Positions 13,668-20,539 of a stretch of 39,674 nt of DNA are shown in pieces. The stretch is from the NCBI GenBank assembly GCA_002726445.1, contig PBSZ01000091.1, positions 1-39,674 of the forward strand. The letters run 5' to 3'. The notes below the pieces were generated by a model that saw only the letters and a program-made list of their open reading frames with translations, was not told where the DNA came from and searched no databases. How positions within the stretch are numbered: the first letter of the stretch is position 1; each line of letters begins with the position of its first letter. The stretch comes from Cellvibrionales bacterium (GTDB lineage: Bacteria; Pseudomonadota; Gammaproteobacteria; Pseudomonadales; UBA7434). Both the position numbers and the translations under genes were made by a program.

Positions 13668-16600
13668 CTATTTCACAGAAAGCAAAATATCGCCGTCATC
13701 TAAGCCGGGACGATTAAGCTCGCCCTGCGATTTAATCTTCCCTGGCGGATCATTAATGGTTTCTGTCAACTCAGCAGCACAATAAGAGGCATCGACCTGC
13801 GCTTGCGGGGCTTCGTTATAGCAAGTTTTTCGTTGCTTAGGCAGGCGTGCTAAGCGACGGATCATTGCATCCATCTGTGAAGGAGGCATTTCTTGACCAT
13901 GCTGAGCACCGGCCGAGCGGGTAATCGTTTCATTCATTAATGTACCACCTAAATCGTTAGCACCCGAATTTAAACAAGCTGCCACGCCCTGCTCGCCCAT
14001 TTTGACCCATGAGGCTTGAATATTATGAATTTGGCCGTGCAAGACAAGACGAGCGACGGCGTGCATCAATACGGCCTCACGAAAAGTTGGCCCTTTACGT
14101 GACAGGCCTTTTAAATACATCGGCGCTTCTTCAGGCACAAAAGGTAATGGAACAAATTCAGTAAAACCACCCGTCTTAACTTGCAGCGCTCGCAATCTCA
14201 ATAAGTGGCGCGCCCAATGAGTAGGCGTTTCTATGTGGCCATACATAATCGTGGATGTGGTTTTCATGCCTAAGCTATGTGCCGTTTCCATGACATGCAA
14301 CCACTGCTCAGTACGGATTTTTTCAGGACAGAGCGTGTCGCGCACTTCGTCATCTAATATCTCTGCCGCGGTGCCAGGCAAGGTTGATAAACCCGCTTCA
14401 ATTAACTGCTGCAAGTAGGTTTTAATATCTAGGCCTAAGGTTTTCGCCCCCTGCCAAATTTCTAATGGCGAAAAAGCATGGATATGCATATCGGGAGAGG
14501 CTTGTTTAATCGCATGGCAAATATCAATGTACGTCTGGCCAGTATAGCCAGGGTGAATACCACCCTGCATACACACTTCAGTCGCACCGCGATCCCAAGC
14601 TTCGCAGGTTCGACGCTGAATTTCTTGCTCGCTTAAATCGTAAGGCCTGCCACGTAAGTTTTCACTCATTTTGCCCTTAGAAAAGGCACAAAATTGGCAT
14701 TTAAAATAACAAATATTGGTGTAGTTAATATTGCGATTAACCACGTATTTAACCGTATCTCTATTCACTGACTGTCGAAGTGAGTCTGCCGCATGACAGA
14801 CATGCCAAAAGTCATCGTTACGCGCCGAAAAGAGTTGCGCCACTTCTTGTTCTTCCAGCACTTCGCCAGCTGAAGCCTTGGCTGTAATCGCAGCGATCGC
14901 GCTTGAAGCAACCGGCCTTGCTTGGTCATCTTTTTGTGCTTGCCACCAAGCAGGGATCGTATTCGAAATGCCCGCCACCCAGTTGTCTGTTCGCGGCCAA
15001 CCTTCACTATCGATCATGGCAAGCACCTTAGCCTGCATAGTGGGTTCTACCCAACGACAAGTGTCGCTCGCATAGTCAGGGTAGATGGTTAGTCTTTCAT
15101 GCAGGTACTTACCCGTCGCACGAGTTTGAGATGCCAACTGATCAACATGAGGCCATGGGGCCTCTGGATTGACATGATCTGGGGTCAGTGGCGATACACC
15201 ACCCCAGTCATCGATGCCTGCTTGAACAATCTTTTCTAGCTCGCCCGGGCTCAAATTAGGCGGCGCTTGAATATGCATCGCAGCACCAAAAATAATACGC
15301 GCGACTGCAATAGTCCAAAGTAATTCTTCGACGCTGGGATCAGGCGCCTGAGCCATTTTAGTATCAGGCTTGGCTCTAAAGTTTTGAATGATCACTTCTT
15401 GCAAGTGGCCATACTGCTCATGTAAATCACGCAGCGCCAACATTGATTCAATACGCTCGCGGCGCGTTTCACCAATGCCGATTAGAATGCCCGAAGTGAA
15501 CGGCACATTTAATTCACCGGCCAATCGAATTGTCTCTAAACGAACAGCAGGGTCTTTATCAGGCGAACCGTAGTGCGGCATACCTTTTTCGGTTAAGCGC
15601 TCGGAGGATGACTCGAGCATGATCCCCATTGAAGCCGACACTTTTCGCAATGCTTTAATCTCGTCAGCATCCATACATCCGGCATTAATATGCGGCAGTA
15701 GAGAGGTCTCCTCTGCGACCCGTTGAGCAACATGTGTCACGTATTCTAACGTGGTACTGAAGCCCATCTCAGCCAAAGCCTCGCGCGCCACTCGATAGCG
15801 CAACTCTGGCTTTTCGCCCAAGGTGAAAAGCGCTTCTTTGCAACCCTGTAACTCACCTTGCTTAGCTAAAGCAACCACTTCATCAGCCGTCATGTAAATA
15901 GCGTCGAGGTGTCTTGGTGTGGTGGCGAAAGTACAGTAGTGACAAACATCACGACACAAATGGGTCAGCGGAATAAATACTTTTCTCGAATAAGAAATCA
16001 GCGAACCATGCCCAGCATCTCGCAAGGCCGATGCCTGTTTCATTAATGCCACTAAATCATCATTATCAGCTAATGCCAAGGCCTGACTCTGCGACGGTCG
16101 ATCAAGCAGACTGTAATCAAGTGATGTTGAAGCCTGCGCATCGATTATCGAACTCGGCTCAACCTCTTCAACCTCTAGCATCCACATCATTTGTAGGCGT
16201 TGGGCAATTGCACTGTCACGACAATATTCAGAGGTGTGTGAAGCGGTATGCAAAGCCTGAACTGACACCGTATCCGATGACAGTGAATGTGATTGATTAA
16301 GGCCAAGAATAAAGGCCATTAAATCACTGGGGGTATCAATATCTGCGGCAATCGCCCTTGAATAAAATCGTTGGATCAACATGTCTTGCGCGGCAAATGA
16401 TTCCTGATGAAGCGCAAAACTATTGCGCCCAAAGTGAAATAGCTGCCGATTTAATGTTTGTCGTTGCTGAATTTTAAGCGGTAAGAATTGGCTGCTGTGC
16501 AATACCATTGTATTGGTGCCGGTTTGATGACGGTCAGAGACTAAGGTCACTGAATCGCGCCGCACTGAAGAGGATAAATCATCTCGCTGTTGCGCAAGTC

Positions 16601-16982
16601 GTTCTATCTCAGCGATCGACAACTCGGGCAGATCGGCATGTAAAATACAGATATCGGTATCGTCAGCTAATTGTAAAACATGCTCACAGCCAGCATTAAT
16701 AGCCGCATTCAATGGAGAAAAAAGCGTGTTCAATTTTGAATGTACTTGAGCGCCTTGTTCTGGCTCAGAGATTAGCGTCACGCCATGGTGCTTAGCCATT
16801 AAAGCGGCAGTTGGATCATCAGACACTATCACAATGCCGTTTATTGAGGGTGCCTGAGTTAATACTGACAATACATCTTCAACCATCGCATGAAATAAAC
16901 GATGGCGCTCAGCAGCCGATAACACGCCAGAAAGACGCTGCTTGGCACTGACAAAATCTTTAAGTGGTAAGACTGCCCACAT
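13668..16982 (-). CDS. Trifunctional CofC-CofG-CofH fusion (2-phospholactate-type guanylyltransferase plus Fo synthase CofG and CofH radical-SAM domains)
   Basis: 1104-aa uninterrupted ORF. Residues ~1-225 CofC-like (WAVLPLKDFVSAKQRLSG, HADLPELS, TGTNTMVL, FHFGRNSFALHQ, DIDTPSDL). CofG CxxxCxxC at residues 343-350 (CRDVCHYC). CofH CxxxCxxC at 758-765 (CYFKCQFC, in NRNINYTNICYFKCQFCAFSKGK). Confidence 0.92.
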   Translation of the reverse strand: MWAVLPLKDFVSAKQRLSGVLSAAERHRLFHAMVEDVLSVLTQAPSINGIVIVSDDPTAALMAKHHGVTLISEPEQGAQVHSKLNTLFSPLNAAINAGCEHVLQLADDTDICILHADLPELSIAEIERLAQQRDDLSSSVRRDSVTLVSDRHQTGTNTMVLHSSQFLPLKIQQRQTLNRQLFHFGRNSFALHQESFAAQDMLIQRFYSRAIAADIDTPSDLMAFILGLNQSHSLSSDTVSVQALHTASHTSEYCRDSAIAQRLQMMWMLEVEEVEPSSIIDAQASTSLDYSLLDRPSQSQALALADNDDLVALMKQASALRDAGHGSLISYSRKVFIPLTHLCRDVCHYCTFATTPRHLDAIYMTADEVVALAKQGELQGCKEALFTLGEKPELRYRVAREALAEMGFSTTLEYVTHVAQRVAEETSLLPHINAGCMDADEIKALRKVSASMGIMLESSSERLTEKGMPHYGSPDKDPAVRLETIRLAGELNVPFTSGILIGIGETRRERIESMLALRDLHEQYGHLQEVIIQNFRAKPDTKMAQAPDPSVEELLWTIAVARIIFGAAMHIQAPPNLSPGELEKIVQAGIDDWGGVSPLTPDHVNPEAPWPHVDQLASQTRATGKYLHERLTIYPDYASDTCRWVEPTMQAKVLAMIDSEGWPRTDNWVAGISNTIPAWWQAQKDDQARPVASSAIAAITAKASAGEVLEEQEVAQLFSARNDDFWHVCHAADSLRQSVNRDTVKYVVNRNINYTNICYFKCQFCAFSKGKMSENLRGRPYDLSEQEIQRRTCEAWDRGATEVCMQGGIHPGYTGQTYIDICHAIKQASPDMHIHAFSPLEIWQGAKTLGLDIKTYLQQLIEAGLSTLPGTAAEILDDEVRDTLCPEKIRTEQWLHVMETAHSLGMKTTSTIMYGHIETPTHWARHLLRLRALQVKTGGFTEFVPLPFVPEEAPMYLKGLSRKGPTFREAVLMHAVARLVLHGQIHNIQASWVKMGEQGVAACLNSGANDLGGTLMNETITRSAGAQHGQEMPPSQMDAMIRRLARLPKQRKTCYNEAPQAQVDASYCAAELTETINDPPGKIKSQGELNRPGLDDGDILLSVK

Positions 16983-17010: not shown

Positions 17011-17973
17011 TTACGCCGTTGAAGAATACAGTTGTTCAGTAAACTGCAAACATTGCTCAGCTAAATTTATCTTATCTTGCTCGCTGTGCATCACCGTATC
17101 GGTTATTTTTACCTTGATGCCCATCGTCTCAATTTCAGCGGCTCGATCAGAATCGCTGCGATCAATAACCAGGCCGTCAATGATATCACTATAGTAACTA
17201 GCAACACCGCTCACCGAGACTGGCATTTCAAGCCCCTGCATCATATTTGCGGTTGGTCCCTTGATCGCCATGCCATTCACAATAGGCGATACTGCAATAA
17301 TAGGTGCCCGACATCGCTTAAGTTTTGGTAATACCGACGGTATTTTTAAGATCGGGTCGACACTGACAAAGGGGTTCGACGGGCAAATAATAATCGCCTT
17401 TGGCTCAGCCGCTATGGCCATCTCGAAAGCGTCGCTAGGAGTCGCTGATGACATGCCGTTAAAACGAATCTCGCTGATCGGGGGTTGGCACTGCTGGCCG
17501 ACAAAATAGTCTTGGAAGTCAAGCCAACCCTGTTCAGTTAGCACCTGTGTCGCAACGGCGTCGTTGGTCATGGGAATCAGCTGTTGTTCGACCCCTAGCG
17601 CTTGACATAGCTTGGCTGTGACCTGCTCTAAACTGAGGCCCTGCTCAAAATATTGGCGCCTACGCGTATGTGTGGCGAGATCACGATCGCCCAATCGAAA
17701 CCAGGTCTCGCCGCCAAGCGCCGACATAGCATCCATAAACTGCCACGTTTCATTGGCCACTCCCCAACCCTGCTCGACATTACTTAAACCCGCCAAGGTA
17801 TACATCACGGTATCGAGATCTGGCGAAACAGGAAATCCTAAATGACAGAAGTCATCGGCAGTATTAGCAACAATAGTCAACTGTTTTGCCGACAGTGATC
17901 GCGCCAAGCCCAGCGCTAATTTCGCACCGCCAACACCGCCTGAAAGGGCTAATATATTTGCTTGCTCTATCAT
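17011..17973 (-). CDS. cofD: 2-phospho-L-lactate transferase-like CofD/FbiA
   Basis: 320 aa; NILALSGGVGGAKLALGLARSL, VANTADDFCHLGFPVSPDLDTVMYTLAGLSN, GLVIDRSDSD. Confidence 0.94.
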   Translation of the reverse strand: MIEQANILALSGGVGGAKLALGLARSLSAKQLTIVANTADDFCHLGFPVSPDLDTVMYTLAGLSNVEQGWGVANETWQFMDAMSALGGETWFRLGDRDLATHTRRRQYFEQGLSLEQVTAKLCQALGVEQQLIPMTNDAVATQVLTEQGWLDFQDYFVGQQCQPPISEIRFNGMSSATPSDAFEMAIAAEPKAIIICPSNPFVSVDPILKIPSVLPKLKRCRAPIIAVSPIVNGMAIKGPTANMMQGLEMPVSVSGVASYYSDIIDGLVIDRSDSDRAAEIETMGIKVKITDTVMHSEQDKINLAEQCLQFTEQLYSSTA

Positions 17974-17988
17974 TCTATAATCACTTGG

Positions 17989-18762
17989 CTAACGAAACAG
18001 ATCGGCTTTTTTGTCACGGATCAATGCGCTAGCATCCTGTTCGCTGGCCTGCCAATCCCAACCTCGAATAACGACCGCTGGAACCGATTCACCACCCTGC
18101 CCCATCAATAGCGAAGCGGCCGATGCCAGTTCGTCTGCGTCAGCCATTTCGGTAACTTCTAGCGGCCGACCGAATAAATCAGAGGCGCCAATCGCTGAGC
18201 GCAATGCCGGCACGGCAGCACTGCCTATAGCAAAACCGGTAATGCCATTACGCCATGCTCGACCCGCACTGTCACTGATAATGATACCTATTTTTAAGCC
18301 TTGCCGAGCAAAATAATCGGCAAGCTGTTTCGCACTCAAATTGGCATCAATGGGCAGTAACAAGACCCGTTCACGGCCCTCAAAATCAGTAATATTAGAC
18401 CGATCAATACCAGCATTAGCATGCACGTATCCACAGCGATGCTCGACAATCATAACGCCTGGGCGATGCCTAACCACTTCTTTTGACTCGTCTAGAATCA
18501 ACTGCACTAAGCGAGGATCTTTATCCACTTCTGCGGCCCATTGCAGCGCCTCGGCAGAAGGCTCAATTTCGTCCAGTAAGGCATAGCGACCTTCAGATTT
18601 TGAAATAATTTTTTGTGCGATAACCAGTATATCGCCATCCACGAGTTTGAACTCAGCGGCAGCTAAAGCGACATCGATTAAGGCTGACAAATCATCGCCA
18701 ACCTCGATCAAAGGTAATGTTTTCAGTGCGGTTAGGGAAAGATCCACAGGCGCGACTGGCAA
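17989..18762 (-). CDS. cofE: Coenzyme F420-0:L-glutamate ligase, single-domain CofE (TTG start)
   Basis: 257 aa; VDGDILVIAQKIISKSEGRYALL, DKDPRLVQLILDESKEVVRHRPGVMIVEHRCGYVHANAGIDRSNI, GIIISDSAGRAWRNGITGFAIGSAAVPAL. TAATTG junction with the upstream gene. Confidence 0.94.
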   Translation of the reverse strand: MPVAPVDLSLTALKTLPLIEVGDDLSALIDVALAAAEFKLVDGDILVIAQKIISKSEGRYALLDEIEPSAEALQWAAEVDKDPRLVQLILDESKEVVRHRPGVMIVEHRCGYVHANAGIDRSNITDFEGRERVLLLPIDANLSAKQLADYFARQGLKIGIIISDSAGRAWRNGITGFAIGSAAVPALRSAIGASDLFGRPLEVTEMADADELASAASLLMGQGGESVPAVVIRGWDWQASEQDASALIRDKKADLFR

Positions 18763-19443
18763 TTAAGCCTCTGGAATGCCCGTTATGGCAAGCCCAGCAT
18801 GACACTTGTATTGCTTGTTAATAAAAATCAGCACCGAGGTGAGGGCTTCAACCGCCGCGGCATTTGCGATTGAACCACCGTGGTAGCCCTTCATGCCCGC
18901 CGCCTCAACAAGCTTGATCACTTCTTCTCGGGCCGCTTTTTTATTGCCGCAGACAATAACGTCACAGGTTAAGTCACTGCCCGCTTGTAAATGCACAGCA
19001 GCGACATTTTGAAATGCCGATACTACTTGAACATTTTCACCAACGATCTCCTGAGCGATTTGACCTGCTGAGCCCTGCTCTGGCAATTGGACACGCGCTA
19101 CTTTAGGTGGCACTAATGGCACCGTTACATCAATTAAAATTTTACCCTCAAGCACATCTTTAACTGACTCTAAGGTGCTGGCATGGTGGGCAAAAGGAAC
19201 CGTCATTGCAACGATATCGGCCGCACTGGCAGCCGCATGGTTATCCATTGCTTCGGCAGCAGAATCAGCAATGCCTCGCTCTTGCATCAAGCCTTGTAAG
19301 GCATCGACCGCTTGTTGCGCTTTTTCTTGGGTCCGCGAGCCAATGATGACGCGATAGCCGGCCTGTGCCCAACGACGAGCTAAACCGGTACCAAGATCAC
19401 CAGTACCGCCTAAAATGGCAACAGTGGGTAGTAAATCACTCAT
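18763..19443 (-). CDS. npdG: F420:NADPH oxidoreductase (Fno/NpdG family)
   Basis: 226 aa; VAILGGTGDLGTGLARRWAQAGYRVIIGSRTQEKAQ, DIVAMTVPFAHHASTLESVK; contiguous with cofE. Confidence 0.88.
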   Translation of the reverse strand: MSDLLPTVAILGGTGDLGTGLARRWAQAGYRVIIGSRTQEKAQQAVDALQGLMQERGIADSAAEAMDNHAAASAADIVAMTVPFAHHASTLESVKDVLEGKILIDVTVPLVPPKVARVQLPEQGSAGQIAQEIVGENVQVVSAFQNVAAVHLQAGSDLTCDVIVCGNKKAAREEVIKLVEAAGMKGYHGGSIANAAAVEALTSVLIFINKQYKCHAGLAITGIPEA

Positions 19444-19714: not shown

Positions 19715-20539
19715 ATGGCTAACAACGATAATACGCAAGACAACGCTACCAATACGAGACTTTGCTTCGATAACGCTGTGGTATTGGTGACCGGCGGCGG
19801 CAAAGGGGTGGGGCTAGGGATAAGTCTGCGCTTTCTTGAGGCAGGTGCAACTGTCTATATTTGCGGCCGATCCGCACCAGAATCGCTGCCATCGGCATCG
19901 ACTAAAGACGGCAGTAATGTCGCACAATTTATTAACGCCGATGTCCGCGATCTGGATCAGACACAAGCCATGTTCGATCAAATCAAAACCGAATCGGGTC
20001 GTTTAGATGTGTTAGTCAACAATGCTGGCGGCGCACCTCCGGCTGAAGCGGCAACGGCATCACCGCGTTTTTCAGCATCAATTATTAATCTGAATTTGCT
20101 TGCGCCGATTAACCTTGCTCAAATGGCCAATGCCATCATGCAAAATCAAGCCTGTGGCGGAAGTATTATCAATATTGCCAGTGTTAGCGTCATTCGGCCT
20201 TCTCCGGGCACGGCCGCTTATGGCGCTGCCAAGGCAGGCATGGTCAACTTTTCCTCATCAGTCGCGGTAGAATGGGCGCCAAAGGTCCGTGTTAATGCGG
20301 TTATCGCAGGTTTAGTGAGAACCGAGCAAGCGGAATTACATTACGGTGATGAAGCCGGCATCGAGGCGGTGGGGCGTACGATTCCTCTGGGTCGCATGGC
20401 GCAACCTCAGGACATTGGTGATGCCTGTTTATTTTTAGCTTCATCACTGGCAAGCTATGTATCTGGCTCAACGGTAACCGTTCATGGCGGCGGCGAAGCA
20501 CCCGCCTTTCTGTCCGCTTCTAACGCAAATAACGAGTAA
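19715..20539 (+). CDS. SDR-family oxidoreductase
   Basis: 274 aa; [48 protein letters not shown]. Confidence 0.9.

Follow-up and report, generated by a model that had tools for sequence, protein, structure and literature searches.

A complete F420 operon encoding a single-domain CofE and no linked dehydro-F420-0 reductase in a Cellvibrionales draft genome

Which C3 acid enters coenzyme F420, and whether the resulting intermediate needs to be reduced, has been settled experimentally for very few Proteobacteria. A cof operon on a 39,674-nucleotide stretch of Cellvibrionales DNA (hereafter the window), the contig C91 in a draft assembly of 1.56 Mb estimated to be 70% complete, raises both questions. 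The initial annotation had reported a CofE lacking the C-terminal domain of mycobacterial FbiB, with no reductase gene nearby, and had proposed that the operon may produce 3-phosphoglycerate-derived F420 (3PG-F420) or a 2-phospholactate-type F420, or that the reductase lies elsewhere in the genome. The comparisons described here make it quite probable that neither 3-phosphoglycerate (3-PG) nor a reductase of the FbiE type takes part. The operon genes are as follows.

18763..19443, minus strand: npdG, leading the operon and encoding an NADPH-dependent F420 reductase (Fno; TIGR01915 score of 193.9 bits, exceeding the cut-off)
17989..18762, minus strand: cofE, encoding a single-domain F420-0:gamma-glutamyl ligase of 257 aa if translation starts at TTG (matches to TIGR01916, PF01996 and PDB entries)
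17011..17973, minus strand: cofD, encoding a 320-aa member of the 2-phospho-L-lactate transferase family (TIGR01819 score of 282 bits, exceeding the cut-off)
13668..16982, minus strand: cofC-cofG-cofH triple fusion, 1104 aa (NF006687 CofGH, 1155 bits; TIGR03552 CofC, 108.8 bits)

All of these genes score above the curated NCBIfam cut-offs, the CofC domain by a thin margin (cut-off 105). CofD retains the metal-site motif PDLDT, and the fusion protein has two radical-SAM motifs (CxxxCxxC, residues 343 and 758). We infer a complete and ordinary proteobacterial pathway in which FO would be made by CofG and CofH, a C3 acid would be activated with GTP by CofC and then moved onto FO by CofD, and glutamates would be added by the single-domain CofE. 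The C3 acid would be phosphoenolpyruvate (PEP) or 2-phospho-L-lactate (2-PL) rather than 3-PG, a dehydro-F420-0 reductase of the FbiB-C/FbiE type is probably truly absent rather than just unlinked, and the product is likely classical F420.

The same genes in the same order are found in the npdG-cofE-cofD-cofC-cofGH operons of Beta- and Gammaproteobacteria, exemplified by plasmid p3 of Paraburkholderia sp. PGU19, whose CofE is likewise stand-alone (57.8% identical to that of the window by tblastn) and whose operon has no adjoining reductase either. PGU19 differs in that its CofC is unfused and its plasmid also encodes a nitroreductase of the FbiE type (140 bits), whereas the window displays the CofC-CofG-CofH fusion and its genome yielded no FbiE. 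The PGU19 nitroreductase lies about 28 kb from the cof operon, across the record start (L161, at about 25.7 kb of NZ_AP023183.1). Within the order, 18 CofC-CofG(H) fusion ORFs were encountered, in families f1, f13, f16, f30, and f41, and no mention of a CofC-CofG-CofH fusion was found in the F420 literature cited here. A divergent gene for an SDR oxidoreductase (window 19715-20539, plus strand, best model NF005893) adjoins the F420 operon in several families.

The absence of an FbiB-type C-terminal domain from the 257-aa CofE ORF was confirmed. The protein scores 256.7 bits against TIGR01916 (F420_cofE; cut-off 180.65), with residues 10-257 covering essentially the whole model (positions 3-244 of 244) and no second domain. 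PF01996 is its sole Pfam match (232 bits), and the two-domain model NF009810 is aligned over only the first 243 of its 449 positions. The C-terminal FMN/nitroreductase-like domain described by TIGR03553, which defines FbiB, is lacking from the protein, and the closest solved structures are those of stand-alone CofE enzymes (2phn, 2g9i, and 7uld, ~172 bits). Because an in-frame ATG/GTG start five codons after the TTG is common to same-genus relatives, the sequence suggests that CofE is more likely 252 aa long (17989-18747) and that the TTG at 18762 is probably unused.

The second part of the earlier description, that no nitroreductase-like gene lies near cofE, also stood: a nitroreductase profile detected no gene of this fold in any window ORF, and PF00881 returned zero matches on the window's contig. 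What did not survive is the implication that this arrangement is odd. Across 392 genomes of the window's order, CofE occurs in 104, and the cof loci examined encode single-domain CofE in two operon layouts. Neither a fused nor a nearby nitroreductase was detected in about 100 of these loci or in the window with the same profile, a negative that rests on the nitroreductases other than Thermomicrobium roseum FbiE in that profile; its single match was the Rhodococcus FbiB control. Similar operons in Paraburkholderia, Aromatoleum, and Paracoccus likewise have no linked reductase, and a single-domain CofE without one is the rule in the order as well as in the alpha- and betaproteobacterial operons examined. 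The missing fused or linked reductase is therefore real and yet not exceptional, being the normal state in the order. A 236-aa gene 3′ of cofGH in several relatives was considered as a linked reductase and set aside, as it reads by eye as a uracil-DNA glycosylase. The second layout, with separate cofG and cofH, resembles that of Paracoccus and is seen at L049, L052, and L055, with an LLM-like gene adjoining in L049. F420 synthesis is patchy within the window's own genus, where five genomes encode CofE and seven do not.

An unlinked reductase was sought with TIGR03553, the model of the FbiB C-terminal domain. As controls, the plasmid nitroreductase of T. roseum, which we take to be its FbiE, scored 163 bits, and the FbiE-like gene of the PGU19 plasmid 140 bits. 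The best score among the 392 order genomes was 75 bits, below these controls, and the window's own genome, 70% complete, gave at most 28 bits in a genome scan and 51 and 22 bits for its two nitroreductases as whole proteins, nothing comparable to the T. roseum protein. The order matches are spread over 52 CofE-positive and 80 CofE-negative genomes, and those in the window's genome and in the order were rejected as FbiE, being generic nitroreductases that are present in CofE-negative genomes too. In a tree with several long branches, the sequences of T. roseum, PGU19, and Variovorax group together, and no nitroreductase from the order falls in their clade. A fingerprint derived from five FbiE/FbiB sequences (YPDxxRxxxExxM) produced 12 matches in 384 genomes, the only one in a CofE-positive genome falling in a frame of 837 residues that does not encode a nitroreductase; another marker, CAPLFC, was dropped because it is missing from actinobacterial FbiB. 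From these searches we conclude that an FbiE orthologue is apparently absent from the sampled order, and it is probably absent from this single draft genome as well. Any reduction would be the work of an unlinked enzyme other than an FbiE orthologue.

Two stand-alone nitroreductases do exist elsewhere in the window's genome.

G000:C98:5583-6161, own genome: C98-type nitroreductase-fold gene
G000:C43:31005-31544, own genome: C43-type nitroreductase gene (L003)

The idea that the reductase lies elsewhere in the genome thus holds in so far as these genes are present, and fails in so far as they are not FbiE orthologues and the 392 order genomes yielded no such orthologue either; both fall outside the FbiE clade in the tree, which contains long branches. 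They are also the only nitroreductase types found in a CofE-positive genome of the same genus that is 91% complete (G166). The favoured, if tentative, reading is that PEP is converted to dehydro-F420-0, which would then be reduced by an unlinked nitroreductase other than FbiE, with these two genes as candidates. Such an arrangement would resemble that of T. roseum: CofE stands alone in both, and use of PEP would add an unlinked reductase to the likeness. It would depart from the mycobacterial PEP route (FbiA, FbiB, FbiC, and FbiD), to which the window's CofC specificity residues correspond, in that CofE lacks the C-terminal reductase domain and CofC is fused to CofGH.

Within the genus, the C98 type accompanies CofE in all five CofE-positive genomes and in none of the seven CofE-negative ones; the C43 type does so in 5/5 and 1/7. 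Order-wide, 55 of the 72 genomes carrying the C98 type are CofE-positive, and this type, nearest to the nitroreductase NfnB (2wzv, 175 bits), was rejected as the sole reductase given its NfnB-like nature and its 17 CofE-negative carriers. The C43 type occurs together with CofE in 29 of its 30 carriers (the lone CofE-negative one being 78% complete). When stratified by four families, the association gives a CMH p of 2.6e-4, to be read with the caveats that related genomes are not independent, that the per-family counts were hand-tallied from printed tables, and that the tally omits G041, a CofE-negative genome of f41. Full-length matches to the C43 type occur in eight plasmid records, every one of them actinobacterial. 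Because 75 CofE-positive genomes do not contain it, the C43 type cannot serve as reductase throughout the order, and a role as an enzyme that uses F420 is just as conceivable. Neither type occurs in 36 of the 104 CofE-positive genomes, and no tested nitroreductase family is common to all of them, and a single shared alternative reductase is therefore less likely. A separate reductase, termed CofX, had already been expected in archaea and some bacteria by Bashiri et al. (PMC6450877); the reduction step is thus a known question, which the present analysis extends to one more bacterial order. That the F420 makers of this order employ such a CofX, non-orthologous to FbiB-C/FbiE and with the C43 type as one candidate, seems rather doubtful.

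Next in plausibility, and still a serious contender, is an archaeal-type route in which CofC and CofD would take 2-PL directly and yield F420-0 without reduction, so that no reductase would be needed. The lack of FbiE among 392 order genomes, 104 of them encoding CofE, fits this route, as does the finding that none of the nitroreductase families tested is shared by all CofE-positive genomes. Published work on the substrates of these enzymes (Hasan et al., PMC8764529) indicates that use of PEP and use of 2-PL cannot be told apart from the sequence of CofC and that CofC does not discriminate between them in vitro, whereas CofD does. The window's CofD scores higher against Methanosarcina mazei CofD (199 bits) than against mycobacterial FbiA (150 bits), and its CofE matches archaeal CofE structures, which points weakly toward 2-PL. 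CofD phylogeny was discarded as a substrate guide: the window's clade includes both Mycetohabitans, a 3-PG user, and the FbiE-positive PGU19, and the tree is therefore non-discriminating. Nearly all CofC enzymes tested in vitro with Methanocaldococcus jannaschii CofD preferred 2-PL, although the archaeal CofD may have produced this preference artefactually (both from PMC8764529). In animal cells, pyruvate kinase is known to form 2-PL as a by-product (PMC6904873). Against the route stand its need for a putative 2-PL-supplying enzyme and the FbiE-like gene on the same plasmid as the related PGU19 operon, which argues for PEP in that clade.

Far less probable is that dehydro-F420 itself serves as the working coenzyme of the lineage. 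FbiE is missing throughout the order sample, and M. tuberculosis (Mtb) FbiB glutamylates dehydro-F420-0 in vitro (PMC6450877); dehydro-F420 is, however, reportedly the less stable of the two forms compared with F420 (PMC8498797 and PMC8764529), and no report was found of any organism with dehydro-F420 as its final coenzyme.

Both PEP and 2-PL are consistent with the specificity residues of CofC, which were compared by profile alignment to 7p97, 6bwg, and 2i5e and in a 105-sequence alignment.

16284..16982, minus strand: CofC domain of the fusion, residues 1-233 (aligned with 7p97, 6bwg, 2i5e, and 101 other CofC sequences)
16428..16430, minus strand: codon of CofC G185, the 3-PG-diagnostic position, equivalent to Mycetohabitans CofC Ser162 and Mtb FbiD Gly163 (PMC8764529)

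In Mycetohabitans CofC, a Ser/Thr at position 162, aided by M91 and C95, sets the use of 3-PG, and H145 matters in an engineered enzyme (Hasan et al., PMC8764529). The catalytic residues D117, D214, and D216 and the carboxylate-binding serine S188 are kept in the window's CofC. Its specificity positions are G185, L91, I95, and T154, all as in Mtb FbiD, in place of the S, M, C, and H/Q of Mycetohabitans; Gly thus replaces the Ser/Thr, and Leu and Ile replace Met91 and Cys95. The two Mycetohabitans sequences included (L093 and L094) carry the expected Ser, which verifies the alignment register. Among about 100 order CofC sequences, none has Ser/Thr at this position, which is mostly Gly, with Asp in ten and Asn in one. 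These Asp/Asn sequences belong to family f40 (L046, L190, L193, L196, L201, L204, L209, L212, L216, L220, and L240), and no description of such a class was found in the part of PMC8764529 drawn on here. CofC proteins of the window's genus contain ~13 extra residues just before the substrate loop (about residues 170-182; window 16437-16475, minus strand) that are absent elsewhere and could change specificity. An AlphaFold model of the CofC domain from three input sequences was discarded (pLDDT 41).

The initial proposal that the operon makes 3PG-F420 is not supported, since all four CofC specificity positions are of the FbiD (2-PL/PEP) type. In its favour, the window's operon has no reductase, CofE stands alone in the Mycetohabitans (Paraburkholderia) rhizoxinica pathway too, the CofD proteins of both group in one broad proteobacterial clade, and a single-sequence PDB search with the CofC domain ranks the Mycetohabitans 3-PG enzyme 7p97 first (48 bits, versus 37 for FbiD). 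The window's CofC nevertheless lacks equivalents of S162, M91, C95, and H145, the four residues implicated in 3-PG use, and each S162 replacement tested, Thr excepted, moved the preference to 2-PL (PMC8764529), leaving 3PG-F420 a very improbable product. Just as improbable is a true FbiE in the missing 30% of the genome: with drafts 70% complete for this species and 73-91% complete for its CofE-positive congeners, and with unlinked FbiE-like genes known in other Proteobacteria, a gene could have been missed for this species alone, but nothing above 75 bits was detected in four same-genus CofE-positive genomes or the 392 order genomes, and the fingerprint search was negative.

The window thus encodes an ordinary proteobacterial F420 set that starts from PEP or 2-PL, and its reading as a 3PG-F420 operon is disfavoured. 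An entire order, with about 100 sampled predicted F420 producers, displays neither the 3-PG signature nor any FbiE orthologue. The question is thereby narrowed to 2-PL versus a reductase other than FbiE, for which two candidate genes can be named.
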